This document shows positions 20,667 to 62,498 of a DNA stretch of 64,000 nucleotides, piece after piece. The notes below the pieces were generated by a model. It searched no databases and was not told where the DNA came from. It saw only the letters and a list, made by a program, of their open reading frames with translations. Origin of the DNA: Sipunculus nudus (lineage: Eukaryota > Annelida > Sipuncula > Golfingiida > Sipunculidae); the NCBI GenBank assembly GCA_026874595.1, contig CM049314.1:60181300-60245299 (forward strand), written 5' to 3'. Positions within the stretch are counted from its first letter, which is position 1. Each line of letters starts with the position of its first letter. The translations under genes were made by a program, and so were the position numbers.

Positions 20667-33891
<13,225 letters not shown>

Positions 33892-37410: not shown

Positions 37411-37920
37411 AGTGGCTGAGGCATTTCTACTCTAGAAAAAACATCTTGCAGGGAGCCAGGTCTCCAGCGGTTGAGGCACTTCTAGTCCAGATGACACATC
37501 TTGCTGGGTTCCAGGTCTCCAGCTCGGTTGAGGCACTTCTAGTCCGAATGACACATCTTGCATGGAGCAAGGTCTCCAGCTCGGTTGAGGCACTTCTATT
37601 CTAGATGATACATCTTGCTGGGAGCCAGGTCTTCAGCTCGGTTGAGGCACTTCTAGTCCAAATGATTTATCTTGCGAGATGCAAGGTCCCAGCTTGGTTG
37701 AGGCACTTCTAGTCTAGATTATACATTGCTGGGAGCAAGGTCGTGAGCTTGGTTGAGGCACTTCTATTCTAGATGATACGTCTTGCTTGGAGCCAGGTCT
37801 CCAGCCCGGTTGAGGCACTTCTAATCTAGATTATACAACTTGCTGGGAGCCAAGTCTCAAGCTTGGTTGAGGCACTTCTAGTCTAGATGATGCATCTTGC
37901 TGGGAGCCAGGTACCTAGTT
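37411..37920 (+). repeat. 57-bp minisatellite, nine copies
   Basis: GGTTGAGGCACTTCTAGTC-type starts at 37418, 37473, 37530, 37587, 37644, 37700, 37755, 37812 and 37869 (spacing 55-57). Each unit continues with a CATCTTGCTGGGAGCCAGGT-like stretch. Moderately diverged; not a multiple of 3 throughout and not coding. Confidence 0.93.
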
Positions 37921-40817: not shown

Positions 40818-41050
40818 TGGCGGTACTGGGCCCTGACAAGCGGCACTGGACCTCACCTTGGGGCAATGAACCCCAGTTGGTGGCAATGGACCCCAAATTG
40901 CGGTAGTTGATAACGACTGGCGGAAATTGTTCCTTAATGGTGGTACTAGAGCCCGACTTGGGGCAATGGGCCCCGACTGGCCGCACTAGAGCCGCAGCTG
41001 GCGGTACTGGTCTTCCAAAGGCGTCAATAGAGCCCGACTGGGTGCACTAT
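40818..41050 (+). repeat. 20-bp degenerate minisatellite
   Basis: About twelve 19-22-bp units close to GGCGGTACTGGACCCCGACT, highly diverged. The short ORFs on both strands here are by-products. Confidence 0.85.
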
Positions 41051-41780
41051 ACTACTTTGAATGACCATTCTGTCTATGCGATCCTTATCAATACCCTACT
41101 ACACTGAAGGCTCATCTGTATTCATCAGTCTCATACAATGCCTGGGACCCGTTTTGCTACTATGGTTCATCTACATTCATGAGCACGCTGAAAACTAAAT
41201 AATCTGAGAACAATACACCGATATCCGCCACAGCGCTTGGCGCATCGGGGTGCCCCATGAATACACTTATTGTCTAACGACACAAAAACCTTGGCCGGCG
41301 CATCGATTCTGAAAAAAGCACTCTCTCAAATTCAAAGATACAATTAAACCCAGAAAAAATATCTAAAAATGAAACAAAACTATAGGATTTACTTCGTCAC
41401 ATTTGGTCCCTTTACAATTTGTTTGCTTAAGGCCGGGCAAAAGCATTAATTTATCTCCTGTTATTTAAGGCAAATCGTATAGTGGCATATTCAAATAGCA
41501 TTGATGTTCTTGCATTTCTTACTCAGACATTAAGAATCGTAAAGGGTATATTCCTAAAGGCCAAACCAAGTAAAACGTCTTCAGGGGTGGTCACCCGTGT
41601 GACTAGACCATTTATTTTGCCAGTTGACGGAATTCGTCTATTGTCTCTCGTTTTGCTTGGCAATACCATGGCCAATTTTTTTTTTCTCTTTTACTTGACA
41701 TTTTACTTAAATTATTTTCAGAAATTTTATTTATAAATATTCATTTCACTTTTAACATATTTCTGGATATGGAATATTCT
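41051..41780. other. Left flank of the Ngaro-like insertion
   Basis: Unique sequence up to the B2 terminus. The last bases before the element (GGATATGGAATATTC) were presumably contiguous with GAACGAATTTTC at 58728 before insertion, joined by TTTA. Confidence 0.5.
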
Positions 41781-42031
41781 TTATGAGAAACATTTAGGCC
41801 CAGACATACAAGAAAAGCAAGACATCATTTGATTGAAAATGGGCCCACAAGAACCAAGATTTATTAGAAATGATCCCACCCACCCACCCCTCCCACCCCC
41901 TAAATTTACATATTATGTAATATAAGATATAAAAACCATGTAAGGTGGGGTCAACACCGCCAACAGTATGTATAGGCACATGATACACGTTTAAAACAGA
42001 TACAATGGAGGAGTAAGGGGTGGCTGCTGGG
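41781..42031 (-). repeat. Split direct repeat B2 (3' end of the Ngaro-like element)
   Basis: Second B copy. Strong similarity to B1 at 41781-41970, weak at 41971-42031. Its outer end reads CTCATAAA on the minus strand, then the flank GAATATTCC begins; the last four bases equal the first four of A1. Confidence 0.85.
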
Positions 42032-42350
42032 GTCAGAAATACAATGAAACGGGCAGCAGTAAGAGGCTTTGTCAGTACTGACCTTCGCTTAAGTACGGGT
42101 CAGTGTTTTGCCCGCACTGAAAGTATACACGCCTTTGATTGGCTTTAAAATTTGCTGAATATTCTTGTAGGGTCAAATGACAGTCAGCAGACCACGCAAC
42201 AGGCTGTTACAACTATCAGGCTGTCACCGCTATCGCGGGTATGGCACCCCAGCATGTAAACAAAAGGGTGGCGGGGGCGTGACCTTCACAGCTGTCGGGG
42301 CCCCATGCTCTCATAAAGCTCCTTTGCCTTGCTGGTAAAATAGATATTTA
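42032..42350 (-). repeat. Split direct repeat A2
   Basis: Second copy of the A repeat, sandwiched between B1 and B2 as in the Ngaro/PAT structure. Left homology boundary at 42032 (GTCAGAAATAC), right boundary at 42350 where B1 begins. Confidence 0.9.
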
Positions 42351-42600
42351 TGAGAAACATTCAGGCCCAAACATACAAGAAAAGCAAGATATCAGTTGCT
42401 TGAAAATAGGCCCACAAGGACCAAGATTTATTAGAAAAGATCCCACCCCCCACCCCCAAACCCCCAAATTTACATATTATGTTATATAAGATATAAAAAC
42501 CATGTATGATGAGGTCAAAAGTGCCACTGGACACTTCCCCCACACTACCAAGAATTTAGGGAGGAAGGCTGCTGCCTGCATTGGGGAAACTAAAATTATT
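42348..42600 (-). repeat. Split direct repeat B1
   Basis: Direct repeat of B2. Clear homology runs from 42348 to about 42530 (TTATGAGAAACATT, CATACAAGAAAAGCAAGA, TTTACATATTATGT and ATAAAAACCATGTA are shared), weaker to about 42600. It adjoins A2 directly. The C-rich stretch at about 42444-42467 differs in length between the two copies. Confidence 0.85.
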
Positions 42601-42639
42601 GATAGGAGAGCTTTATATAATGTTTGATAACTACATCAC

Positions 42640-43300
42640 ATAATAAACAGAGTTGGGCTCACATGAGTCACAAGGAGATATATACTATGCAATGGGTAAA
42701 GCTAAATGATCAGGCTCACATGAAACACTGAATAATATGACCTGTACAATTGCGGTTTAAATGAAAACAGAAATACTCTAATAATCTAAAGCATCTATGT
42801 TAAAATATACATCTATATAGCGGCTCACTTGAGACCGTGGCATGAAATAATTATATATCTACACATTGGTAAAGGTTGGGCTCACCTGAGTCACCAGCTT
42901 CACAAATATACTAAATCATAAAGGTCAAGCTGGTCAGGCTCACTTGGGGCACCGAACAACATACACATTGCAAAGAAGCAGGAATAAATTAGATGACTAA
43001 GGAAACATCATAGTGGCACTGTATGGACCACCACACATGCTAACAGCAAATTAAGCTAATACTGTAGGTAATAACAGAATTCTGACAAGGCTTTGACTCA
43101 CATAAGACACCAAGGACTTGGAGAATGGTCAGATAATTAAATAACAACAATCTGTGTATGCAATACAATAATAAGTTGGTGGGGTAGGCTCACTTGAGGC
43201 ACTCCCCGCCGGCAGAAAGACAAGGACCTGTGCAGACAAGCTTAGGCTAGATCAAATAAGTAAAAAGGGGTTGGGTTAGGCTCACTTGAGGCACTACCCG
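42640..43300. repeat. Spaced copies of a near-palindromic GGCTCACTTGAGGCAC motif in the Ngaro 3' region
   Basis: At least eight variants of GGCTCACTTGAGGCAC (consensus close to its own reverse complement around TCAAGTGA) occur at roughly 42656, 42712, 42822, 42876, 42938, 43092, 43188 and 43280, spaced 50-155 bp apart between the recombinase stop and B1. The spacer sequences are not clearly alike. Possible recombinase- or host-factor-binding sites, or a decayed tandem repeat; this is inference. Confidence 0.6.
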
Positions 43301-43321
43301 AAGGAAAAGGGGGGGGGGTAT

Positions 43322-44357
43322 TTATTCCGGTAGATGCAGTCGAATATACTTATGAAAAGCATTTCCAACGGCCGATATTGCGTATTTGGGCAACTGTTTT
43401 GCTTTGAGCTGCCGCTTCAGTTGCAGCACCAATTCTAAATCTATGGTCTTTAAATTTACTTGTATCCAGATTACAAAAATGTAGGTCCCGAGATAATTGA
43501 GAATTAAATTGGGAGCGGGATATCGGGTGTTCAAAGGGGGGAACTGTACAGGGGGCCTGGTAGTTTACCACGTGCATTGGAGAATTTTGAAAGTGAAGAA
43601 ACTGGGCAGGGCCCGTTGGATTTGGAATTAATAATAACTGTCTGACACTACCCTGGTGGCATGTTCTTGGCATGGCGGAGTGTGATACGGACTATTGCTA
43701 CCGGAGAAGGAGATATCAGAGCTCTGGATAACGTATTGGGCATTGTTAATATTGGAAAAAGCTCCTATATGTGAAAGCATCCATGAAAACAAGTTAAATA
43801 TAATGCAGAAAAAGGCACCTGAGATAAGACGACTGTACTGTGTGCTGCAAAGCCATTACCAGTTTAACTAAAATAGGAAGCGCAATGGGGAATCGCAAGT
43901 CGACTGTGGGACTTAGTTTCCGGGCACCGGCAAGGAACCTCCGTATGGCTTCTGTGGCAGTAGGATCAGGTTTGTTATCAGTTTGTGTGGATAAGACAGG
44001 GCAGAAGCTAAAGAAGCAAGTGTACTGCCAGAGCAACCTTGTCGAAATTTATTAGACAAAAATAATAAGACAGTCCAGGAAGATACAGGGATATCAGACA
44101 AAGATGGGTGCCTCTGGAGCTGACAAAACGTTTTAAGTGCATCCCAGACTCGAGTAAGATCTCTTGGTGTTGGCAGATATGCTGCTGGCGATAAGATGTG
44201 TACCAAGGTTGACTAAAGCAGGGTCGCAGGAAGCGGTTGGATCCAAGTTAGATTTAGGTTGGCGGCCGGGGCAAGGGTCTTGAAGCGGCACACCTGTAAT
44301 CGGGAGAGAGCATCCGCTTGAGAATTTAAAATGCCCGGGATATGTTGAGCCTTGCAT
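43322..44357 (-). pseudogene. Tyrosine recombinase of the Ngaro-like element (broken)
   Basis: Minus-strand fragments: SAM-like N-terminal DNA-binding part with SISANTKRSYSSLG (44133-44357) and LSDIPVSSWTVLLFLSN (43913-44206). A region near 43770 reads SHIGAFSN, where an Arg-Ile-Gly-Glu-like catalytic Arg box is expected, so that Arg may be lost. The C-terminal core has DHRFRIGAATEAAA and IRNIGRWKCF (frame 43350-43673) followed, after a one-base shift, by HKYIRLHLPE, which supplies the catalytic Tyr. The HxxR...GRW...Y order is diagnostic for DIRS/Ngaro recombinases, which integrate the circular cDNA. Multiple shifts show it is inactive. Confidence 0.82.
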
Positions 44358-44691
44358 AAAATATTATAACGTAACGTAGCTAAAACAAAGCGCCTAACTA
44401 GGTGCATTGTGTTCGGTTCATGGGTTGACTGTATGGCAAGAATAAACACCAGGGCTTGGTTGTCAGTGAAGATAGAAACTTTCTTGTTGGACAGTTCATG
44501 GCCCCAGGTTTCCAGAGCTGCAACGATGGGCCATAATTCCAAGGTGACAATATTAAATTTCCTCCATTTCGGGGGAATTTGCCGTAGAACCACTGAGAAC
44601 CGAACACAGAACCGAAACCGTGACCTTTTGCTGCATCAGTGAATAGTTCTAGAGAACTGTGGTGGACCATGCTGCATCCAAGAAAAAACAT
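44213..44691 (-). pseudogene. RNase H domain of the Ngaro-like element (frameshifted)
   Basis: Minus-strand fragments carry the acidic residues of RNase H: ELFTDAAKGHG (frame 44398-44691), then after a frameshift VTLELWPIVAALETW, VSIFTDNQALVFIL and ILNSQADALSRL (frame 44213-44593). The Asp-Glu-Asp-Asp set is preserved. It follows the reverse transcriptase and is immediately followed by the recombinase N-terminus, leaving no space for the methyltransferase seen in DIRS1 and PAT. Confidence 0.82.
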
Positions 44692-45630
44692 TTACCATTA
44701 AATGAATCTAGAAAATGCAGCCATACAGCGAGGTCAAGTTTGACATCTTTATTTAACCTGGTGTGGTGGTGTGGTTTTAATAAGCCCCGAGTTTTATTAA
44801 TAAGGCGCCGCAAAAATGCCCTGCCCAATAAAAAAAAAAACAACAGCACAAGCAAAATTGAGAAAACCAATTAATGACTGTAATTCTCGTAATGTGACTT
44901 TTACTTTATCGAGGAAAGATCTAATCATATTTTTGGCTTTAAAAGTTTGTCGTCAGGCAATCGCGCCATTTGGGACTTCGTGTCAAGCTCGATGCCAAGA
45001 AAGGTGAGCACCTTCAGTGAGGGACCTTCAGTTTTCTCATGAGCATAGGCACTCCTAAGGGTTTCACAAAGCGAACAGAAAGCATTTAGCATGGCGTTTG
45101 TTTTGGCTGGACTGTCATTTATAAAGAGATAATCATCAAGTACATGGACTATAGCCCCCGCGTGCCTTTGACAGATTTTTGAGGCGATGAATATCAAAGC
45201 CGAACTGAATTTCTCAAAGATTCTTCAAGTTGATGCACAACCCATGGGTAAGCATTTATCAAAATAAAACTGGCCTGCCTTGCCAATGAAAACCTAGCAA
45301 ATGATAATATTTTGGAGAGACTGCATGGAATAAGCCGAAAAGCTGCTTCAATATCTGTTTTTGCTAAAAAGGCATAGTTCCTAAACGTTTGAGATGCTCA
45401 ATCGCATCTTGGATGGATGCGTATGAAACAACAGACATCTCTAGGAATGCCTGCATTTACAGAATCAGATTCAGGATAAGAGAGATTATGAATTAAACGG
45501 AATTGATTCTCTTGTTTTTTGGGTACCACACCTAGCGGGGAAATTTGAAAGGACGTAAATGGTTGGTATGGAAATGGACCACCTATTCGACCGAATGATT
45601 TTTCTTTGTTTAATATCCTACTAACCACAT
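44649..45630 (-). pseudogene. Reverse transcriptase domain of the Ngaro-like element (frameshifted)
   Basis: Minus-strand fragments in order: fingers motif GVVPKKQENQFRLIHNLSYP (frame 45398-45628), TDIEAAF and LPMGCAS in broken frames at about 45230-45360, the catalytic strand HVLDDYLFI (frame 44925-45197), then FLGIELDTK, VTLRELQSLIGFLNF and FLRRLINKTRGLLKPHHHTR (44649-44960). The two Asp of the LDD box are intact. The domain is split by frameshifts, one in a 10-A run near 44830, and by a stop after LPMGCAS. The motif set is that of DIRS-order reverse transcriptases. Confidence 0.85.
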
Positions 45631-45867
45631 CTGGTTTGGATAAAGCCGACTGATGATTTTTGGGATTGAGATACTACGATTGCCAGTAAAGCCTAAACTG
45701 AAACCCTTGGTGAAGCCATCTATAATCTCTGCTGCGAGGGGCTTGATATATTTATGTTTTGACAAGAGATGATTTAAGAGGTCAGCACGTGCCGGAGTAG
45801 GGGGAGGTGTTTTACCGGTTACGGTTGTTGTAAGAATTGGCTCTGAAGGGGGGGTTGATTTGGTGCG

Positions 45868-46133
45868 CTAGCAGAAGGGGAGACGCGGGGTTGGGCTGTA
45901 CTTTGAGTAATTAAAGCTCCTGGGGAATGCTGGAGGGCGAGTTGTTGAATATGGAAGTTTTTGGCAGGGTGTTGTTGGCCACATATGCTGCATTTGTGAA
46001 TGTATGGGCAGGGTTGTCGGGCACAGGAACGATCTTTGTTGTAGGCCCAGCAAGTGTTTGGTGCAGCCTGGGCCCGAGGGGCTGGGAGGATTTAAAGTTT
46101 TTGTAGTTATTTTTACTTCAAGGCCCCTGATGG
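45868..46133 (-). pseudogene. Gag C-terminal zinc finger, separated by stops
   Basis: Continuing in the same frame after the gag stop, and beyond several further stop codons, the minus strand encodes a Cys/His cluster at about 45985-46056: CWAYNKDRSC, then RQPCPYIHKCSICGQQHPA. This is a C-x8-C-x4-C-x3-H-x-C-x2-C-type cluster of the kind expected for nucleic-acid binding by the gag product. A Pro/Gln/Ser-rich tail follows. The stops between the two parts show decay. Confidence 0.6.
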
Positions 46134-46905
46134 TCACGCGTCCATCCATAAGTCCCTATGTCGCTTGTCGTAGCGTCTTCCTGTCCCGGCCCTAAGCTTT
46201 CTAAACTCCCTACCATAGGTCTGCCAATTATTCCCGTTACCATTAAGGGCACGAATGGCCTCCATATAAGTGCACAATGCAGGGGCTTCAGGAGATTTTT
46301 CAGGTTTTGAGCAATACACGGCCATGAAAACGTGGAATGCCGAGGTCCATTCGTATATGTTGAGTGGAGGGGGTTTGGCATTGGCATTTACATTGGAGGT
46401 TTGCTTAGAAGACTTTTCATTGTCCTTTTTGTCAAAAGGGGAGAGTCCTAACTGCGAGTAGAGTTCAATGAACTCCTCTCGCCAAATAGCATCACGAAGA
46501 TCCTGGTCCACCCGGTCAGCAATGTTGATGATCTCGTCGTCAATGTCAATGTTGTCATCGCCGGACTTAGATTGGGATGCCTCACCTGATACAGCATAGG
46601 CCACACTGTTGGTAACCTCGGCGGTCGGACCGGGGTCTACAGCCAGTAACCCCTTAAACTGAAGGAGGCTCTTCATCTTAGAGTCGACGTCGACACTTAC
46701 TTTGTCTGAGATGTCTGAAACCAGAGCCTTTAACTGAGCCTCAGACAACCCAGTTGTTGACTGCGAGGGGGAGGGGGTATGTTCCGCGTTAGTGGCATGG
46801 GTGAGCCCACTCTGACGCCGTTTACGAGGGGCAGACGATGATGAGTCAACCTCGACTAGGCGTTGAGATGATTTGGAATTTCTCTTTGGTATCTTTATAA
46901 GTATT
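46134..46905 (-). pseudogene. gag-like ORF of the Ngaro-like element (broken)
   Basis: Open minus-strand frame with no ATG at its beginning; it opens near 46905 just after the satellite and stops at TGA 46134. It has a basic, Ser-rich start (KRNSKSSQ, APRKRR), an acidic middle (DDNIDIDDEI) and a predicted helical C-terminal part (FRKLRAGTGRRYDKRHRDLW). The position as first ORF and the composition suit a YR-retroelement structural (gag-like) protein; there is no family-wide catalytic motif to test. The upstream end abuts the array, so the true start codon may be lost. Confidence 0.65.
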
Positions 46906-47018
46906 CACAATGGTAATGAACAGTATGCAAACAATATAATTAGCCTTAACCCTGCTGCCTGCATGGAAATGCTTGATATCTGCCTTATGTCATGTTATGG
47001 TCTTGGCATATAATATTT
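46906..47018. other. Short spacer between gag and satellite
   Basis: About 110 bp containing stop codons in the gag frame, then the first degenerate satellite monomer (CTGGGGAACAAACATGGCAC). It shows that the array abuts the gag reading frame closely. Confidence 0.5.
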
Positions 47019-47435
47019 AACTGGGGAACAAACATGGCACCAGGCAGAATCAAAATAACCGGGGAACAAACATCGACCCCGTACCATGTTAAATAACCAG
47101 GAACAAACATCAACCCGGTAGCATGTTAAATAACCAGGGAACAAACATTGACCCGGTAGCATGTTAAATAACCAGGGAACAAACATCAATATGGTAGCAT
47201 GTTAAATAACCAGGGAACAAACATTAACCCGGTTGCTCTTGCATGTTAAATAACCAGGGAACAAACATCACCCAGGTAGCGTGTTAAATAACAAGGGAAC
47301 AAACATCGACCCGGTTGCACAGGCATGTTAAATAACCAGGGAACAAACATCAACCCGGCAGCATGTTATTATAGTTTTAATAATCAGTGGACATATACCC
47401 ACCTTGCAGCATATTAAATTACCGGGGAACAAACA

Positions 47436-48897
47436 TCAACCCGGTTCTATGATATTATTATTACGAGTGACCAGGGAACACATCAACCCGGTAATAATTT
47501 AATTACCAGGGAACATCATTATTGACCGGGGAACACATAAATAACCAGGGAACAAACATCGACCCGGTAGCACGTTAAATAACCAGGGAACAAACATCGA
47601 CCCCGTAACATGTTAAATAACCAGGGAACAAACATCGACCCCGTACCATGTTAAATAACCAAGGAACAAACATCAACCCGGTACTATGTTAAATAACCAG
47701 GGAACAAACATCGACTCGGTACCATGTTAAATAACCAGGGAACAAACATCGACCCGGTACCATGTTAAATAACCAGGGAACAAACATCGACCTGGTACCA
47801 TGTTAAATAACCAGGGAACAAACATGGACTCGGTACCATGTTAAATAACCAGGGAACAAACATCGACCCGGTACCATGTTAAATAACCAGGGAACAAAGA
47901 TCAACCCGGTACCATGTTAAATAACCAGGGAACAAACATCGACCTGGTACCATGTTAAATAACCAAGGAACAAACATCGACCCGGTACCATGTTAAATAA
48001 CCAGGGAACAAACATCGACTCGGTACCAAGTTAAATAACCAGGGAACAAACATAAACCCGATAACATGTTAAATAACCAGGGAACAAACATCGACCCCGT
48101 ATCATTTTAAATAACCAGGGAACAAACATCGACCCGACAGCATGTTTAATAACCAGGGAACAAACATCAACCCGGTTCTATGATATTATTATTACGAGTG
48201 ACCAGGGAACACATCAACCCGGTAATAATTTAATTACCAGGGAACATCATTATTGACCGGGGAACACATAAATAACCAGGGAACAAACATCGACCCGGTA
48301 GCACGTTAAATAACCAGGGAACAAACATCGACCCCGTAACATGTTAAATAACCAGGGAACAAACATCGACCCCGTACCATGTTAAATAACCAAGGAACAA
48401 ACATCAACCCGGTACTATGTTAAATAACCAGGGAACAAACATCGACTCGGTACCATGTTAAATAACCAGGGAACAAACATGGACCCGGTACCATGTTAAA
48501 TAACCAGGGAACAAACATCGACCTGGTACCATGTTAAATAACCAGGGAACAAACATGGACTCGGTACCATGTTAAATAACCAGGGAACAAACATCGACCC
48601 GGTACCATGTTAAATAACCAGGGAACAAAGATCAACCCGGTACCATGTTAAATAACCAGGGAACAAACATCGACCTGGTACCATGTTAAATAACCAAGGA
48701 ACAAACATCGACCCGGTACCATGTTAAATAACCAGGGAACAAACATCGACTCGGTACCAAGTTAAATAACCAGGGAACAAACATAAACCCGATAACATGT
48801 TAAATAACCAGGGAACAAACATCGACCCCGTATCATTTTAAATAACCAGGGAACAAACATCGACCCGACAGCATGTTTAATAACCAGGGAACAAACA
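47436..48897. repeat. 731-bp higher-order repeat, two copies
   Basis: The segment starting at CCCGGTTCTATGATATTATT (about 47440) recurs 731 bp downstream (about 48171), including the odd long monomers and the succession of GGTACC-type monomers, with only isolated differences (for example CATCGACCCGG at 47749 against CATGGACCCGG at 48480). This is a recent tandem duplication within the array. Confidence 0.88.
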
Positions 48898-50549
48898 TCG
48901 ACCCGTTAGCATGTTAAATAACCAGGGAACAAACATCGACCCCGTACCATGTTAAATAACCAGGGAACAAACATCAACCCGGTACCATGTTAAATAACCA
49001 GGGAACAAACATCGACCCGGTTGCATGTTAAATAACCAGGAAACAAACATTACCCAGGTATTGTGTTAAATAACCAGGGAACAAACATCACCCTGGTAGC
49101 GTGTTAAATAACCAGGGAACAAACATCGACCCGGTTGCACTTGCATGTTAAATAACCAGGGAACAAACATCACCCAGGCAGCGTGTTAAATAACCAGGGA
49201 ACAAACATCAACCCGGTTGCATTTGTATGGTAAATAACCAGGGAACAAACATCACCCAGGTAGCGTGTTAAATAACCAGGGAACAAACATCAACCCGGTT
49301 GCATTTGCATGTTAAATAACCAGGGAACAAACATCACCCAGGTAGCATGTTAAATAACCAGGGAACAAACATCACCCAGGTAGCGCGTTAAATAACCAGG
49401 GAACAAACATCGATTCGGTTGCACATGCTTGTTAAATAACCAGGGAACAAACATCACCCAGGTAGCGTGTTAAATAACCAGGGAACAAACATCGATCCGG
49501 TTGCACATGCATGTTAAATAACCAGGGAACAAACATCACCCAGGTAGCATGTTAAATAACCAGGGAACAAACATCACCCAGGTAGCGTGTTAAATAACCA
49601 GGGAACAAACATCACCCAGGTAGCGTGTTAAATAACAAGGGAACAAACATCGACCCGGTTGCACATGCATGTTAAATAAACAGGGAACAAACATCACCCA
49701 GGTAGCATGTTAAATAGCCAGGGAACAAACATCACCCAGGTAGCGTGTTAAATAACCAGGGAACAAACATCGATCCGGTTGCACATGCATGTTAAATAAC
49801 CAGGGAACAAACATCGACCCGGTTGCACATGCATGTTAAATAACCTGGGAACAAACATCACCCAGGTAGCATGTTAAATAACCAGGGAACAAACATCACC
49901 CAGGTAGCGTGTTAAATAACCAGGGAACAAACATCGATCCGGTTGCACATGCATGTTAAATAACCAGGGAACAAACATTACCCAGGTAGCATGTTAAATA
50001 ACCAGGGAACAAACATCACATAGGTAGCGTGTTAAATAACCAGGGAACAAACATCGACCCGGTTGCACATGCGTGTTAAATAACCAGGGAACAAACATCA
50101 CCCAGGTAGCATGTTAAATAACCAGGGAACAAACATCACCCAGGTAGCGTGTTAAATAACCAGGGAACAAACATCACCCGGGTGGCATGTTAAATAACCA
50201 GGGAACAAACATCGATCCGGTTGCACATGCATGTTAAATAACCAGGGAACAAACATCACCCAGGTAGCATGTTAAATAACCAGGGAACAAACATCACCCT
50301 GGTAGAGTGTTAAATAACCAGGGAACAAACATCGATCCGGTTGCACTTGCATGTTAAATAACCAGGGAACAAACATCACCCGGGTAGCGTGTTAAATAAC
50401 CAGGGAACAAACATCACCCAGGTAGCGTGTTAAATAACCAGGGAACAAACATCACCCAGGTAGCGTGTTAAATAACCAGGGAACAAACATCGACCCGGTT
50501 GCACTTGCATGTTAAATAACCAGGGAACAAACATCACCCAGGTAGCATG

Positions 50550-53500
50550 TTAAATAACCAGGGAACAAACATCACCCTGGTAGCTTGTTAAATAACCAGG
50601 GAACAAACATCGATCCGGTTGCACTTGCATGTTAAATAACCAGGGAACAAACATCACCCGGGTAGCGTGTTAAATAACCAGGGAACAAACATCACCCAGG
50701 TAGCGTGTTAAATAACCAGGGAACAAACATCACCCAGGTAGCGTGTTAAATAACCAGGGAACAAACATCGACCCGGTTGCACTTGCATGTTAAATAACCA
50801 GGGAACAAACATCACCCGGGTAGCGTGTTAAATAACCAGGGAACAAACATCACCCTTGTAGCGTGTTAAATAACCAGGGAACAAACATCACCCAGGTAGC
50901 GCGTTAAATAACCAGGGAACAAACATCACCCTGGTAGCGTGTTAAATAACCAGGGAACAAACATCACCCAGGTAGCGTGTTAAATAACAAGGGAACAAAC
51001 ATCACCCAGGTAGCGTGTTAAATAACCAGGGAACAAACATCACCCAGGTAGCGTGTTAAATAACCAGGGAACAAACATCAACCCGGTTGCACATGCATGT
51101 TAAATAACCAGGGAACAAACATCACCCTGGTAGCGTGTTAAATAACCAGGGAACAAACATCGATCCGGTTGCACTTGCATGTTAAATAACCAGGGAACAA
51201 ACATCACCCGGGTAGCGTGTTAAATAACCAGGGAACAAACATCACCCAGGTAGCGTGTTAAATAACCAGGGAACAAACATCACCCAGGTAGCGTGTTAAA
51301 TAACCAGGGAACAAACATCGACCCGGTTGCACTTGCATGTTAAATAACCAGGGAACAAACATCACCCAGGTAGCATGTTAAATAACCAGGGAACAAACAT
51401 CACCCAGGTAGCGTGTTAAATAACCAGGGAACAAACATCGACCCGGTTGCACTTGCATGTTAAATAACCAGGGAACAAACATCACCCAGGTAGCGTGTTA
51501 AATAACCAGGGAACAAACATCGATCCGGTTGCACATGCATGTTAAATAACCAGGGAACAAACATCACCCGGGTAGCGTGTTAAATAACCAGGGAACAAAC
51601 ATCACCCAGGTAGCGTGTTAAATAACCAGGGAACAAACATCACCCAGGTAGCGTGTTAAATAACCAGGGAACAAACATCACCCAGGTAGCGTGTTAAATA
51701 ACCAGGGAACAAACATCGATCCGGTTGCACATGCATGTTAAATAACCAGGGAACAAACATCACCCGGGTAGCGTGTTAAATAACCAGGGAACAAACATCA
51801 CCCAGGTAGCGTGTTAAATAACCAGGGAACAAACATCACCCAGGTAGCGTGTTAAATAACAAGGGAACAAACATCGACCCGGCTGCACTTGCATGTTAAA
51901 TAACCAGGGAACAAACATCACCCAGGTAGCGTGTTAAATAACCAGGGAACAAACATCGACCCGGTTGCACTTGCATGTTAAATAACCAGGGAACAAACAT
52001 CACCCAGGTAGCATGTTAAATAACAAGGGAACAAACATCAACCCGGTTGCACTTGCATGTTAAATAACCAGGGAACAAACATCACCCAGGTAGCGTGTTA
52101 AATAACAAGGGAACAAACATCGACCCGGTTGCACTTGCATGTTAAATAACCAGGGAACAAACATCGATCCGGTTGCACATGCATGTTAAATAATCAGGGA
52201 ACAAACATCACCCGGGTAGCGTGTTAAATAACCAGGGAACAAACATCACCCGGGTAGCGTGTTAAATAACCAGGGAACAAACATCACCCTGGTAGCGTGT
52301 TAAATAACCAGGGAACAAACATCGACCCGGTTGCACTTGCATGTTAAATAACCAGGGAACAAACATCACCCAGGTAGCATGTTAAATAACAAGGGAACAA
52401 ACATCAACCCGGTTGCACTTGCATGTTAAATAACCAGGGAACAAACATCACCCAGGTAGCGTGTTAAATAACAAGGGAACAAACATCGACCCGGTTGCAC
52501 TTGCATGTTAAATAACCAGGGAACAAACATCGATCCGGTTGCACATGCATGTTAAATAACCAGGGAACAAACATCACCCGGGTAGCGTGTTAAATAACCA
52601 GGGAACAAACATCACCCGGGTAGCGTGTTAAATAACCAGGGAACAAACATCACCCTGGTAGCGTGTTAAATAACAAGGGAACAAACATCGACTCGGTTGC
52701 ACTTGCATGTTAAATAACCAGGGAACAAACATCATCCAGGTAGCGTGTTAAATAACCAGGGAACAAACATCGACCCGGTTGCACTTGCATGTTAAATAAC
52801 CAGGGAACAAACATCACCCATGTAGCATGTTAAATAACCAGGGAACAAACATCACCCAGGTAGCGTGTTAAATAACCAGGGAACAAACATCACCCAGGTA
52901 GCGTGTTAAATAACCAGGGAACAAACATCGACCCGGATGCACTTGCATGTTAAATAACCAGGGAACAAACATCACCCGGGTAGCGTGTTAAATAACCAGG
53001 GAACAAACATCACCCTTGTAGCGTGTTAAATAACCAGGGAACAAACATCACCCAGGTAGCGCGTTAAATAACCAGGGAACAAACATCACCCTGGTAGCGT
53101 GTTAAATAACCAGGGAACAAACATCACCCAGGTAGCGTGTTAAATAACAAGGGAACAAACATCACCCAGGTAGCGTGTTAAATAACCAGGGAACAAACAT
53201 CACCCAGGTAGCGTGTTAAATAACCAGGGAACAAACATCAACCCGGTTGCACATGCATGTTAAATAACCAGGGAACAAACATCACCCTGGTAGCGTGTTA
53301 AATAACCAGGGAACAAACATCGATCCGGTTGCACTTGCATGTTAAATAACCAGGGAACAAACATCACCCGGGTAGCGTGTTAAATAACCAGGGAACAAAC
53401 ATCACCCAGGTAGCGTGTTAAATAACCAGGGAACAAACATCACCCAGGTAGCGTGTTAAATAACCAGGGAACAAACATCGACCCGGTTGCACTTGCATGT

Positions 53501-55930
53501 TAAATAACCAGGGAACAAACATCACCCAGGTAGCATGTTAAATAACCAGGGAACAAACATCACCCAGGTAGCGTGTTAAATAACCAGGGAACAAACATCG
53601 ACCCGGTTGCACTTGCATGTTAAATAACCAGGGAACAAACATCACCCAGGTAGCGTGTTAAATAACCAGGGAACAAACATCGATCCGGTTGCACATGCAT
53701 GTTAAATAACCAGGGAACAAACATCACCCGGGTAGCGTGTTAAATAACCAGGGAACAAACATCACCCAGGTAGCGTGTTAAATAACCAGGGAACAAACAT
53801 CACCCAGGTAGCGTGTTAAATAACCAGGGAACAAACATCACCCAGGTAGCGTGTTAAATAACCAGGGAACAAACATCGATCCGGTTGCACATGCATGTTA
53901 AATAACCAGGGAACAAACATCACCCGGGTAGCGTGTTAAATAACCAGGGAACAAACATCACCCAGGTAGCGTGTTAAATAACCAGGGAACAAACATCACC
54001 CAGGTAGCGTGTTAAATAACAAGGGAACAAACATCGACCCGGCTGCACTTGCATGTTAAATAACCAGGGAACAAACATCACCCAGGTAGCGTGTTAAATA
54101 ACCAGGGAACAAACATCGACCCGGTTGCACTTGCATGTTAAATAACCAGGGAACAAACATCACCCAGGTAGCATGTTAAATAACAAGGGAACAAACATCA
54201 ACCCGGTTGCACTTGCATGTTAAATAACCAGGGAACAAACATCACCCAGGTAGCGTGTTAAATAACAAGGGAACAAACATCGACCCGGTTGCACTTGCAT
54301 GTTAAATAACCAGGGAACAAACATCGATCCGGTTGCACATGCATGTTAAATAACCAGGGAACAAACATCACCCGGGTAGCGTGTTAAATAACCAGGGAAC
54401 AAACATCACCCGGGTAGCGTGTTAAATAACCAGGGAACAAACATCACCCTGGTAGCGTGTTAAATAACCAGGGAACAAACATCGACCCGGTTGCACTTGC
54501 ATGTTAAATAACCAGGGAACAAACATCACCCAGGTAGCATGTTAAATAACAAGGGAACAAACATCAACCCGGTTGCACTTGCATGTTAAATAACCAGGGA
54601 ACAAACATCACCCAGGTAGCGTGTTAAATAACAAGGGAACAAACATCGACCCGGTTGCACTTGCATGTTAAATAACCAGGGAACAAACATCGATCCGGTT
54701 GCACATGCATGTTAAATAACCAGGGAACAAACATCACCCGGGTAGCGTGTTAAATAACCAGGGAACAAACATCACCCGGGTAGCGTGTTAAATAACCAGG
54801 GAACAAACATCACCCTGGTAGCGTGTTAAATAACAAGGGAACAAACATCGACTCGGTTGCACTTGCATGTTAAATAACCAGGGAACAAACATCATCCAGG
54901 TAGCGTGTTAAATAACCAGGGAACAAACATCGACCCGGTTGCACTTGCATGTTAAATAACCAGGGAACAAACATCACCCATGTAGCATGTTAAATAACCA
55001 GGGAACAAACATCACCCAGGTAGCGTGTTAAATAACCAGGGAACAAACATCACCCAGGTAGCGTGTTAAATAACCAGGGAACAAACATCGACCCGGATGC
55101 ACTTGCATGTTAAATAACCAGGGAACAAACATCACCCGGGTAGCGTGTTAAATAACCAGGGAACAAACATCACCCTGGTAGAGTGTTAAATAACCAGGGA
55201 ACAAACATCACCCAGGTAGCGCGTTAAATAACCAGGGAACAAACATCACCCTGGTAGCGTGTTAAATAACCAGGGAACAAACATCACCCAGGTAGCGTGT
55301 TAAATAACAAGGGAACAAACATCACCCAGGTAGCGTGTTAAATAACCAGGGAACAAACATCACCCAGGTAGCGTGTTAAATAACCAGGGAACAAAAATCA
55401 ACCCGGTTGCACATGCATGTTAAATAACCAGGGAACAAACATCACCCTGGTAGCGTGTTAAATAACCAGGGAACAAACATCGATCCGGTTGCACTTGCAT
55501 GTTAAATAACCAGGGAACAAACATCACCCGGGTAGCGTGTTAAATAACCAGGGAACAAACATCACCCAGGTAGCGTGTTAAATAACCAGGGAACAAACAT
55601 CACCCAGGTAGCGTGTTAAATAACCAGGGAACAAACATCGACCCGGTTGCACCTGCATTTTAAATAACCAGGGAACAAACATCACCCAGGTAGCGTGTTA
55701 AATAACCAGGGAACAAACATCACCCAGGTAGCGTGTTAAATAACCAGGGAACAAACATCGACCCGGTTGCACTTGCATGTTAAATAACCAGGGAACAAAC
55801 ATCACCCAGGTAGCGTGTTAAATAACCAGGGAACAAACATCGATCCGGTTGCACATGCATGTTAAATAACCAGGGAACAAACATCACCCGGGTAGCGTGT
55901 TAAATAACCAGGGAACAAACATCACCCTGG
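50550..55930. repeat. 2160-bp higher-order repeat, about 2.5 copies
   Basis: The order of 38/44-bp monomer variants repeats with a period of 2160 bp: for example 51061, 53221 and 55381 start the same ATCAACCCGGTTGCACATGC block, and 52681 and 54841 share the rare ATCGACTCGG and ATCATCCAGG variants. Copies 1 and 2 are almost identical in every line compared; copy 3 has more differences and loses register after about 55930. Confidence 0.88.
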
Positions 55931-57563
55931 TAGCGTGTTAAATAACCAGGGAACAAACATCACCCAGGTAGCGCGTTAAATAACCAGGGAACAAACATCA
56001 CCCTGGTAGCGTGTTAAATAACCAGGGAACAAACATCAACCCGGTTGCACATGCATGTTAAATAACCAGGGAACAAACATCACCCTGGTAGCGTGTTAAA
56101 TAACCAGGGAACAAACATCGATCCGGTTGCACTTGCATGTTAAATAACCAGGGAACAAACATCACCCGGGTAGCGTGTTAAATAACAAGGGAACAAACAT
56201 CACCCAGGTAGCGTGTTAAATAACCAGGGAACAAACATCACCCAGGTAGCGTGTTAAATAACCAGGGAACAAACATCGATCCGGTTGCACCTGCATTTTA
56301 AATAACCAGGGAACAAACATCACCCAGGTAGCGTGTTAAATAACCAGGGAACAAACATCACCCAGGTAGCGTGTTAAATAACCAGGGAACAAACATCGAC
56401 CCGGTTGCACTTGCATGTTAAATAACCAGGGAACAAACATCACCCAGGTAGCGTGTTAAATAACCAGGGAACAAACATCGATCCGGTTGCACATGCATGT
56501 AAAATAACCAGGGAACAAACATCACCCGGGTAGCGTGTTAAATAACCAGGGAACAAACATCACCCAGGTAGCGTGTTAAATAACCAGGGAACAAACATCA
56601 CCCAGGTAGCGTGTTAAATAACAAGGGAACAAACATCGACCCGGTTGCACTTGCATGTTAAATAACCAGGGAACAAACATCACCCAGGTAGCGTGTTAAA
56701 TAACCAGGGAACAAACATCGACCCGGTTGCACTTGCATGTTAAATAACCAGGGAACAAACATCACCCAGGTAGCGTGTTAAATAACAAGGGAACAAACAT
56801 CGACCCGGTTGCACTTGCATGTTAAATAACCAGGGAACAAACATCACCCAGGTAGCGTGTTAAATAACCAGGGAACAAACATCGACCCGGTTGCACTTGC
56901 ATGTTAAATAACCAGGGAACAAACATCACCCAGTAGCGTGTTAAATAACAAGGGAACAAACATCGACCCGGTTGCACTTGCATGTTAAATAACCAGGGAA
57001 CAAACATCACCCAGGTAGCGTGTTAAATAACCAGGGAACAAACATCAACCCGGCAGCATATTATTAAAGTTTTAATAATCAGTGGACATATACCCTCCTT
57101 GCAGCATATTAAATTACCGGGGAACAAACATCAACCCGGTTCTATGTTATTATTATAACGAGTGACCAGGAACACATCAACCCGGTAATAATTAAATATC
57201 AAGGGAACATCATTATTGACCGGGGAACACATTAATAAATGGGAGCAAATATCAACCCGGTAGCATATTATAATTATCATTAATAATGACCGGGGGAACA
57301 CACATCCACCCGGCTGCATGTTTATTTATTTATTTATTTTATTTTTGTTATTATTATTATCATTACTAATGACCAGTAGCATATTAAATAACCGGAAACA
57401 AACATCGACCCGGTGGCATATTGTAATTATTATTAATGAGCAGGGAACACACATCAACGCAGCTGCATAATTGTTTCTATTGTCATTATTAAAGGCCGGG
57501 GAACAAACATCAACCAAGTAGCATGTTAAACGAACGGGGAACATACATCAACCCGGTAGCATA

Positions 57564-58410
57564 AATAAAAAAAATCGGGTAGGCATATAAACTCTGGCAA
57601 CCAAAACATAACATATATTTCTTGTATTGAAAACCCACATGCAAATGGAAACATAACTATGAACAACTGTATATGTCAGAATCTGGGACAAAAATAAAAA
57701 GACAGGAGGCAAGGAGCATATTAAAAGGGGCCACATGACAGGTAATAAAATACTAACATACCGGGGAGTTATATTATAGATATCCGTGGGGGGAGGGGAA
57801 GAGGAACCCGGACGTGTATAAATGAATGGAACCGGAAGAGCAATAAACATACGACATAGTATTAGTGCAATACCACAACGCAGGGAAATAACTATCGGTC
57901 TCTAAGACCTGTGATTACCGCGCCCCTCAGGCTTAAGTACCACAACTTGGACCCCACTGCACTAAAGTCGATTCCATCACTTAGAAACAAGAGCCTGCGC
58001 CACTTAAAACTCCGATGGTGCCACAAGGATGAATAATCTATAGCCCCCAGCACGGCGTCAAGATACTGGTTGCATGTTTTGACTCTCAAGTTATAATCAG
58101 GGGGATATGATTTGCCACAGTAAGAGGGGGTATCTGGGGTTCAGCTCCGAAACGGAAATATGTTTGACTCCGAATTCAAGATGTAACATTTTACAGAATT
58201 CATAAATAGAATTACCGACAACTTCAGGTTGACCGGTGTCAAGAGTTTCAAAGTTTTACCGAGGAGTACACACCTATCCGCTTTTTATATAAAAAAATTT
58301 AGCAGAACCCGTACAGATTCAAGATTTACCGAGGAGCGAGTTATTAGATAAAGAATAAAAAGTATTATCGAAATCAAAATACCGTTAGAAATTCAGTCAG
58401 TCAGAAACAC
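57564..58410 (-). other. 5' leader of the Ngaro-like element
   Basis: About 850 bp of apparently unique sequence between the satellite edge and A1, on the 5' side of the element's genes. No ORF with a recognisable motif. A promoter would be expected in or near A1, but none can be assigned by eye. Confidence 0.5.
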
Positions 58411-58727
58411 GTCAGAAATACAATGAAGCAGGCAGCAGTAAGAGGCTGTGTCAGTACTGACCTTCGCTTAAGTACAGGTCAGTGTCTCGTCCGCACTGAA
58501 AGTATACACGCCTTTGATTGGCTTTAAAATTTGCTGAATATTCTTGTAGGTCAAATGACAGTCAGCAGCCCATGCAACAGGCTGTCACAGCTATCAGGCT
58601 GTCACGGCTATCGCGGCTATGGCACCGCAGCATGTAACCAAAGGGTGGCGGGGGCGTGACCTTCACAGCTGTCGGGGCCCCATGCTCTCATAAAGCTCCT
58701 TTGCCTTGCTGGCAAAACAGATATTTA
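58411..58727 (-). repeat. Split direct repeat A1 (5' end of the Ngaro-like element)
   Basis: 317-bp direct repeat of 42032-42350, sharing for example the GTCAGTACTGACCTTCGCTT and CATGCTCTCATAAAGCTCCT segments. It is the 5' terminus of the element on the minus strand, beginning TAAATATCTG. Homology to A2 stops abruptly at 58727, where the flank begins. Confidence 0.9.
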
Positions 58728-62161: not shown

Positions 62162-62498
62162 ATGGCTTGGGAAGTTTTCGAAGCGCTGTGCTCTTTTGTA
62201 TTTGCTGTCATCCTCCAATTCGTGGTGGAATATTTCCGGAGAAAACCCCAGATTGATAACATTGCTTCCAAATCCGTTCTGGTCACAGGTTGTGATAGTG
62301 GTTTTGGGAACAAACTGGCTAAGAGGCTAGGTGCTTTAGGATGCCGGGTTTTCGCAGGATGTTACACACAGAAGGGAGCTGATGAACTACGGAGCTGTTC
62401 CTCACACCGTGTGGAGATCATTATACTCGATGTATCTAAGACAGACAGCATCAAGAAAGCCCATAGCTTTGTCCTGGGCAGACTTCAACCAGACGAAT
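62162..62498 (+). CDS. SDR gene 3, first coding exon
   Basis: ATG 62162 is chosen because an acceptor (GTACTTTCAG ending at 62150) lies 11 nt upstream, exactly as in gene 2. The longer frame from 62120 would cross that acceptor. An upstream 5'UTR exon is implied. The donor is GAAT|GTATAA at 62498/62499. Confidence 0.9.

Follow-up and report, generated by a model that had tools for sequence, protein, structure and literature searches.

TOC1 of Chlamydomonas, an element with split repeats, has 76-bp units repeated in tandem in its interior, and the monomers of the mouse L1 5' untranslated region (5'UTR) have a unit length of about 200 bp. The L1 monomers stand in tandem upstream of the coding region and are tied to promoter activity, as presented in PMC9022269. 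That satellites can be born from repeats inside transposable elements is already established: in the account given for Lathyrus sativus, tandem repeats in the 3'UTR of Ogre/Tat long terminal repeat (LTR) retrotransposons expand into satellites (PMC7004042), in oyster satellites arise from internal repeats of Helitron/Helentron elements and miniature inverted-repeat transposable elements (MITEs) (PMC12628747), and in frogs from the tails of short interspersed nuclear elements (SINEs) (PMC10794172). Ngaro-like tyrosine recombinase (YR) elements, for example Xenopus DIRS-53_XT, are described in PMC9210276 with split direct repeats, gag, reverse transcriptase and RNase H (RT/RH), YR and an SGNH open reading frame (ORF), and Ngaro-like elements of Cafeteria are given a typical length of about 6 kb (PMC8547959). 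The word 'tandem' is absent from the main text of the former paper and 'tandem repeat' from that of the latter, and a limited literature search among open-licence papers returned no case of a Ngaro element with satellite or tandem repeats. Here we analyze a stretch of 64,000 nucleotides from Sipunculus nudus (GCA_026874595.1, CM049314.1, positions 60,181,300 to 60,245,299, in the following 'the window'), located on C9, in which a Ngaro-like element encloses a long tandem array. We conclude, with a probability of roughly 80%, that a short repeat was inherited within a Ngaro-like lineage, that a single insertion on C9 was duplicated and that the repeat was expanded in situ in each of the copies.

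The locus resembles Ogre, as portrayed in PMC7004042, in that short internal arrays are dispersed with the element and long arrays occur at some places, in keeping with expansion in situ. Ogre, however, is a plant LTR element with repeats 3' of pol, whereas here the repeats reside 5' of gag in a YR element and a core sequence is kept across divergent copies. Expansion of element-internal repeats is also shared with the Helitron/Helentron, MITE and SINE cases described, but those are DNA transposons or SINEs. By analogy, the mouse L1 monomers resemble the array in their upstream tandem position, a promoter role being no more than a candidate here, and TOC1 can be likened to the window element by description, not by sequence. 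In amphibian Ngaro elements, as set out in PMC9210276, the hydrolase ORF follows YR, while it is the first ORF here and the tandem repeat lies between hydrolase and gag.

The preliminary description of the window had placed the array inside a complete split-direct-repeat frame and thus within a Ngaro-like element, and this is borne out. The frame, A1 ... B1-A2-B2, extends on the minus strand from 58727 to 41780. The order of its components from the 5' end, A1, SGNH hydrolase fragments, array, gag, RT/RH, YR and B1-A2-B2, emerged from tblastn searches whose coding probes were the open frames of L039 (C13:50.55 Mb), a relative in which they are intact:

58411..58727, minus strand: A1 repeat, 5' end of the element, 94% identical to A2 over 319 bp and 97% identical to its counterpart at C9:60.338 Mb
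57901..58137 and 58127..58234, minus strand: SGNH/GDSL hydrolase in two fragments that cover residues 100-210 of the L039 protein, identified by tblastn
57063..57650, minus strand: 5' edge of the array, degenerate and orthologous across the three C9 copies (94.4, 95.1 and 95.7%)
47014..57562, minus strand: 38/44-bp tandem array of ~250 monomers, from Tandem Repeats Finder (TRF), a profile search and 246 anchors
46134..46904, minus strand: gag-like ORF, 256 aa stop to stop, 39% to L039 gag
44213..45801, minus strand: reverse transcriptase/RNase H, broken and spread over several frames, PF17917 at 5e-7 for 44213-44635 and tblastn
43362..44188, minus strand: tyrosine recombinase, broken, tblastn with the L039 ORF, fragments 38-45% identical
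42656..43294, minus strand: 3' iterated motif GTGYCTCAAGTGAGCC, eight copies at irregular spacing, from a scan allowing up to 3 mismatches
42347..42518, minus strand: B1 repeat, 90% to B2
42032..42350, minus strand: A2 repeat, 94% to A1
41780..41954, minus strand: B2 repeat, 3' end of the element, 90% to B1

The matches for gag, RT and recombinase follow one another in that order on the minus strand and fall in more than one frame, and the window copy is therefore decayed. The gag-like ORF is found ~0.1 kb past the array, and a Pfam search with it returned nothing significant. The earlier placement of the array between A1 and gag holds, but its assignment to a plain 5'UTR does not, because the SGNH hydrolase fragments intervene and the array is located between hydrolase and gag; tblastn gave no match to the first 99 residues of the relative's hydrolase between A1 and the array. 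In L039, the first ORF encodes a GDSL/SGNH hydrolase (PF13472, 6e-10), the third an RT (PF00078, 6.5e-14), and the last matches Cre at an E value of 1e-4, with Pfam PF00589 at E 0.063 being below the cut-off. The Cre match and the recombinase fragments of the window, together with RT and RNase H, are what is expected of a Ngaro-like YR retrotransposon. Among the Pfam matches at E 0.01 of four L039 ORFs there is no methyltransferase domain, which would be a DIRS-like feature, and the SGNH gene would speak for Ngaro rather than PAT-like membership (PMC9210276). A1 and A2 of L039 are 98.5% identical; its B1/B2 pair could not be resolved. A 562-bp direct repeat (99.6%) occurs in the young C13 copy beyond A1 and just past A2 (L039 2291-2852 and L055 1040-1600), and at L040 1382-2966 an A1-B1-A2-B2 copy of just 1.6 kb is present without coding matches.

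TRF reports the array at 47024-57063 with a period of 38 and a score of 11674, and the monomer profile tracks it across ~10.5 kb. Spacings between TGTTTGTTCC anchors are 38 bp in 167 and 44 bp in 67 of 245 cases, and repeated 60-mers reveal long internal periods of 2160, 731 and 366 bp. The edge block 57040-57240 reappears at 47345-47544 (94.5%) and partly at 48138-48275 (91%); the old edge was therefore part of what was copied during growth.

At the heart of the repeat is a core of 25 bp, ACCRGGTTGATGTTTGTTCCCTGGT, with inverted-repeat ends ACCAGG/CCTGGT. It occurs in five further dispersed and divergent copies, in arrays of 0.2-4.3 kb upstream of coding remains; element DNA of the C9 copies is 66-75% identical to that of the C6 or C3 copy (80% in one 101-bp stretch). 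Where both sides survive, in C6, C3 and C5, the array occupies the same site between SGNH and the coding region. A short array at this fixed place is bordered on both sides in these three and in 10 young copies treated below, and on one side in C11 and C1:6.36 Mb. The copy at C6:22.49 Mb (L031) has a complete frame (A1/A2 94.9% over 138 bp, B1/B2 89.6%) with the order SGNH, 17 copies of a 44-bp unit, gag, RT, YR, a 59-bp array and B1. At C3:17.05 Mb, gag is immediately preceded by ~8 units and a fragment weakly matching SGNH (E 3e-4) lies 5 kb upstream, and at C5:6.29 Mb an SGNH fragment is followed by 3-5 units and then by a YR fragment. At C11:60.75 Mb (L033) and C1:6.36 Mb (L056), array, RT and YR follow each other, gag gives no match in the interval from array to RT, and no hydrolase was seen on the other side; the arrangement shared by the two loci suggests a deletion derivative of the element. 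The C11 array measures ~4.3 kb and its expanded 43-bp variant is private, with 57 of 57 genome matches at this single locus. C10:24.22 Mb holds at most a marginal monomer remnant (E 0.008 and 0.05). In the C6 copy, a lone monomer-like stretch (L031 9469-9507, E 3e-4) lies at the A1 end, outside the array. Whether monomers recur at the same 5' position in independent insertions had been asked beforehand, and related monomers do lie upstream of the coding region in such insertions.

In all 21 pairs among seven arrays, two of which are the expanded C9 arrays, the majority letters of the core agree in 22-25 of 25 columns, whereas the flanking columns agree in 4-8 of 13 in 18 pairs and in 9, 12 and 13 in the remaining three. 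Since the core is kept while the spacers drift, it was probably cis-acting in the live element. The expanded C11 variant agrees with the core in just 19-22 of 25 columns, a drift that would be anticipated if the array grew once its function had gone.

On C9, the insertion is present in three copies, in the window, at C9:60.328-60.338 Mb and at C9:60.785-60.868 Mb (C9b, L038). Both flanks are common to them at about 94-99% (for the C9:60.79 Mb copy, the comparison on the 3' side covers ~0.8 kb), and the two further copies are segmental duplicates of the window insertion. A1 and A2 differ by 5.4% in the window copy and by 4.1% in the C9:60.33 Mb copy; as this is close to the flank divergence, insertion and duplication were not far apart in age. 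In the C9:60.79 Mb copy A1 is disrupted into three pieces. The array bodies begin to differ at the inner end of the shared 5' edge 57063-57650, and the strongest long period differs among them (2160 bp, 1075 bp and 38 bp only). The C9:60.33 Mb array spans ~3.3 kb, of which ~1.1 kb is non-monomer and holds a foreign 278-bp tandem module. The array at C9:60.79 Mb extends from the gag side at 60.7905 Mb to the hydrolase side at 60.8671 Mb, a length of ~76 kb that is largely extrapolated: the sequence read comprises ~29 kb from one end, 1.9 kb from the opposite end and a pair of 400-bp samples from the middle, and all of it proved to be monomer. Of the two routes envisaged in the preliminary description, expansion of a short tandem repeat after insertion is the one that fits. 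The 3' part and flank (41000-46340) of the window and C9:60.79 Mb copies are 98-100% identical, compared with 92-98% to the C9:60.33 Mb copy, while their 5' parts do not reach this identity; these two copies, ~550 kb apart, have recently exchanged 3' sequence. An array-mediated crossover between C9 copies is not claimed, as the switch sits inside gag and not in the array.

A 28-letter monomer pattern, allowing up to 3 mismatches, was searched for in 1.43 Gb and gave 2100 genome matches on a single strand, while the reversed control gave 0. The parts of the C9 copies that were fetched contain 992 matches (208 in the window, 37 at C9:60.33 Mb and 707 + 40 at C9:60.79 Mb), and with ~1124 extrapolated for 45.5 kb at equal density ~2116 are expected from the three copies. 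Partly by extrapolation, the three duplicates would account for essentially all monomer matches. A 26-letter core pattern, likewise with up to 3 mismatches, matched 40 times in forward and 999 times in reverse orientation, compared with 1 and 0 for the reversed control. Among the 100 of 1039 matches listed (17 of the remaining 939 are forward), the core sits in the window array and in C6, C11, C3, C1:6.36 Mb and C5:6.29 Mb, the sole exception outside an element-like locus being a singleton at C1:11.23 Mb. This singleton (L058) adjoins other tandem repeats, and no element piece was present in the 2 kb examined. No long element-free array was seen elsewhere in the genome by the monomer and C11-variant counts or among the core matches listed; the long arrays seen are all still within elements, and within the DNA searched there is no sign of satellite dispersal.

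The gag search returned 25 rows corresponding to 22 loci. Monomer arrays accompany gag in the three C9 copies, C6 and C3:17.05 Mb, with C10 as a doubtful remnant; the gag loci C3:11.85 Mb, C5:29.22 Mb and C16 fall outside the repeat census. Thirteen gag loci are of a young type and 10 of them carry a 65-bp repeat. In these 10 nearly identical regions, about four units stand between hydrolase and gag; one unit was lost in one copy and no expansion occurred. All 29 genome matches of the 65-bp unit lie within the 10 loci.

On this basis, we propose that a Ngaro-like element with the structure A1 - SGNH hydrolase - short tandem repeat - gag - RT/RH - YR - 3' repeat - B1 A2 B2 inserted once on C9. 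The short repeat would be an inherited part of the element lineage, its core maintained and its spacers free to drift, and the core was probably a cis-acting site of the active element, perhaps acting in promoter function, insulation, translation or packaging. Duplication carried the host segment to two further C9 sites. Following insertion and decay, and at least in part following this duplication, the repeat would have been expanded and homogenized separately in each copy by unequal exchange or slippage, resulting in array spans of about 3.3, 10.5 and 76 kb.

A number of observations weigh against this proposal. Part of the core conservation is ascertainment, because units were found by a 13-letter internal anchor with up to 3 mismatches; note that among the 12 core columns outside the anchor 10 agree for C9-C6 and for C3-C6. 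An RNA structure of the core is not supported, the pairing and folding tests reported below being negative or weak. The 38-44-bp monomer model has no match to the young 65-bp repeats and homology between the two is not detectable, such that a shared position is seen and common descent is not demonstrated; moreover, three of the 13 young-type gag loci lack a repeat in the 701 bp examined. Nine places match the interval between A1 and the array, namely the three C9 copies, one on C10 and five without monomer. These five are SGNH-bearing loci (C1:75.6 Mb, two on C12, C11:66.0 Mb and C3:82.06 Mb), and no gag, RT or YR matches are present there in the DNA examined. A short copy at C2:22.89 Mb, with A1-B1-A2-B2 within 1.6 kb, has neither monomer nor coding match, and of 27 A1 matches genome-wide 10 are in examined loci and 17 in loci outside the examination. 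The agreement between 2116 and 2100 monomer matches assumes even monomer density, the 45.5-kb middle of the 76-kb array rests on two 400-bp samples, and array lengths are assembly lengths, not read-verified.

An RNA hairpin array formed by ACCRGG...CCYGGT pairing was considered and rejected. Six arrays were compared with shuffles and an excess was seen just weakly in C11, where the paired count is equalled in 27 and the Watson-Crick count in 3 of 500 shuffles, while pairing in C9b (C9:60.79 Mb) was below shuffles. RNA folding of eight repeat stretches yielded z-scores of -0.55 and 0.63 for the window, -1.27 for C6, -1.28 for C11, -1.51 for C3, -2.16 for the young family and 1.37 and 1.46 for the other C9 copies. 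Rfam gave 0 matches at gathering score in five loci and three sub-threshold matches in the window at 41-60 kb. Given the Rfam and folding results, a known ribozyme in the repeat is not supported.

A more specific version of the proposal is put forward tentatively, and we would rate it slightly below even odds. In a hydrolase-first Ngaro-like clade, the interval from hydrolase to gag would hold a conserved regulatory box of 25 bp in iterated form, and a second iterated motif would follow YR ahead of B1. Live elements would need the box, which would be intrinsically prone to expansion, dead copies would turn into satellite nurseries, and one insertion would have given rise to spans of ~3, 10 and 76 kb. 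As to the second motif, 59-bp and 54-bp arrays lie between YR and B1 in the C6 (L031 3080-3879) and C11 (L033 9150-10000) copies, respectively. The GTGYCTCAAGTGAGCC scan also gives three matches within a 57-bp repeat (37.5-37.65 kb) and 13 within an array of the C1 locus, and the motif is therefore not specific.

Three alternative explanations deserve consideration. It is improbable that the large array lengths are assembly artefacts. Tandem arrays can indeed be collapsed or joined and the lengths are known from the assembly alone, but the window contains 0 N, as do the other stretches read, the edges are orthologous, and mixed variants and higher-order structure are found inside the arrays; the conserved repeat and its position would stand even under a large length error. 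Slightly less probable still is that long arrays are mobile with the element and that transposition of array-bearing elements spreads satellites, as the preliminary description had envisaged for units of 17 kb. The array does lie within a split-repeat frame and short arrays do move with the element. Yet long arrays of the C9 monomer are found in one duplicated insertion only, the sole other copies found with this monomer being segmental duplicates on the same chromosome; unlinked copies have 0.2-4.3 kb and their own variants, and the 10 young copies, with about four repeats each, show one unit loss and 0 expansions. Finally, the idea that a satellite foreign to the element invaded it at a later time, or that the element landed in a satellite, is hardly credible: the array is very long for a Ngaro-like element and that at C9:60.33 Mb does contain the foreign module, but independent copies have the same core, oriented alike, upstream of their coding regions, and no free satellite appears in the whole monomer count or among the core matches listed. 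The outcome named in advance as pointing to later insertion, copies without monomers alongside a satellite widespread elsewhere, was not seen, although several truncated monomer-free copies exist.

Other repeats and genes occur in the vicinity. A 278-280-bp tandem module with a related consensus is found at L019 7272-7977, L018 2070-3191, L027 2233-3654 and L037 6958-8101, one of these occurrences being embedded in the satellite of a C9 copy, and a 219-bp version resides in the window at 31340-31760. Near the element, the window also contains a 57-bp tandem repeat at 37417-37912 and a 299-bp tandem repeat at 22830-23689. Exon-like stretches in ORFs at 20781-20968 and 62285-62472 are 83% identical to each other, and these ORFs presumably encode short-chain dehydrogenases.

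While the origin of satellites from element-internal repeats is not new as such, the Ngaro case, the 25-bp core and the 5' position of the hydrolase look new within the limited literature searched. Our analysis adds tyrosine-recombinase retrotransposons to the elements whose internal repeats give birth to satellites. The three duplicates of a single insertion, with array lengths apparently differing about twentyfold, constitute a natural series for the study of satellite growth and homogenization, and the conserved core points to a candidate cis-element in a poorly known class of retrotransposons. If the core is indeed a regulatory box, satellite birth would here have been caught inside a YR element.

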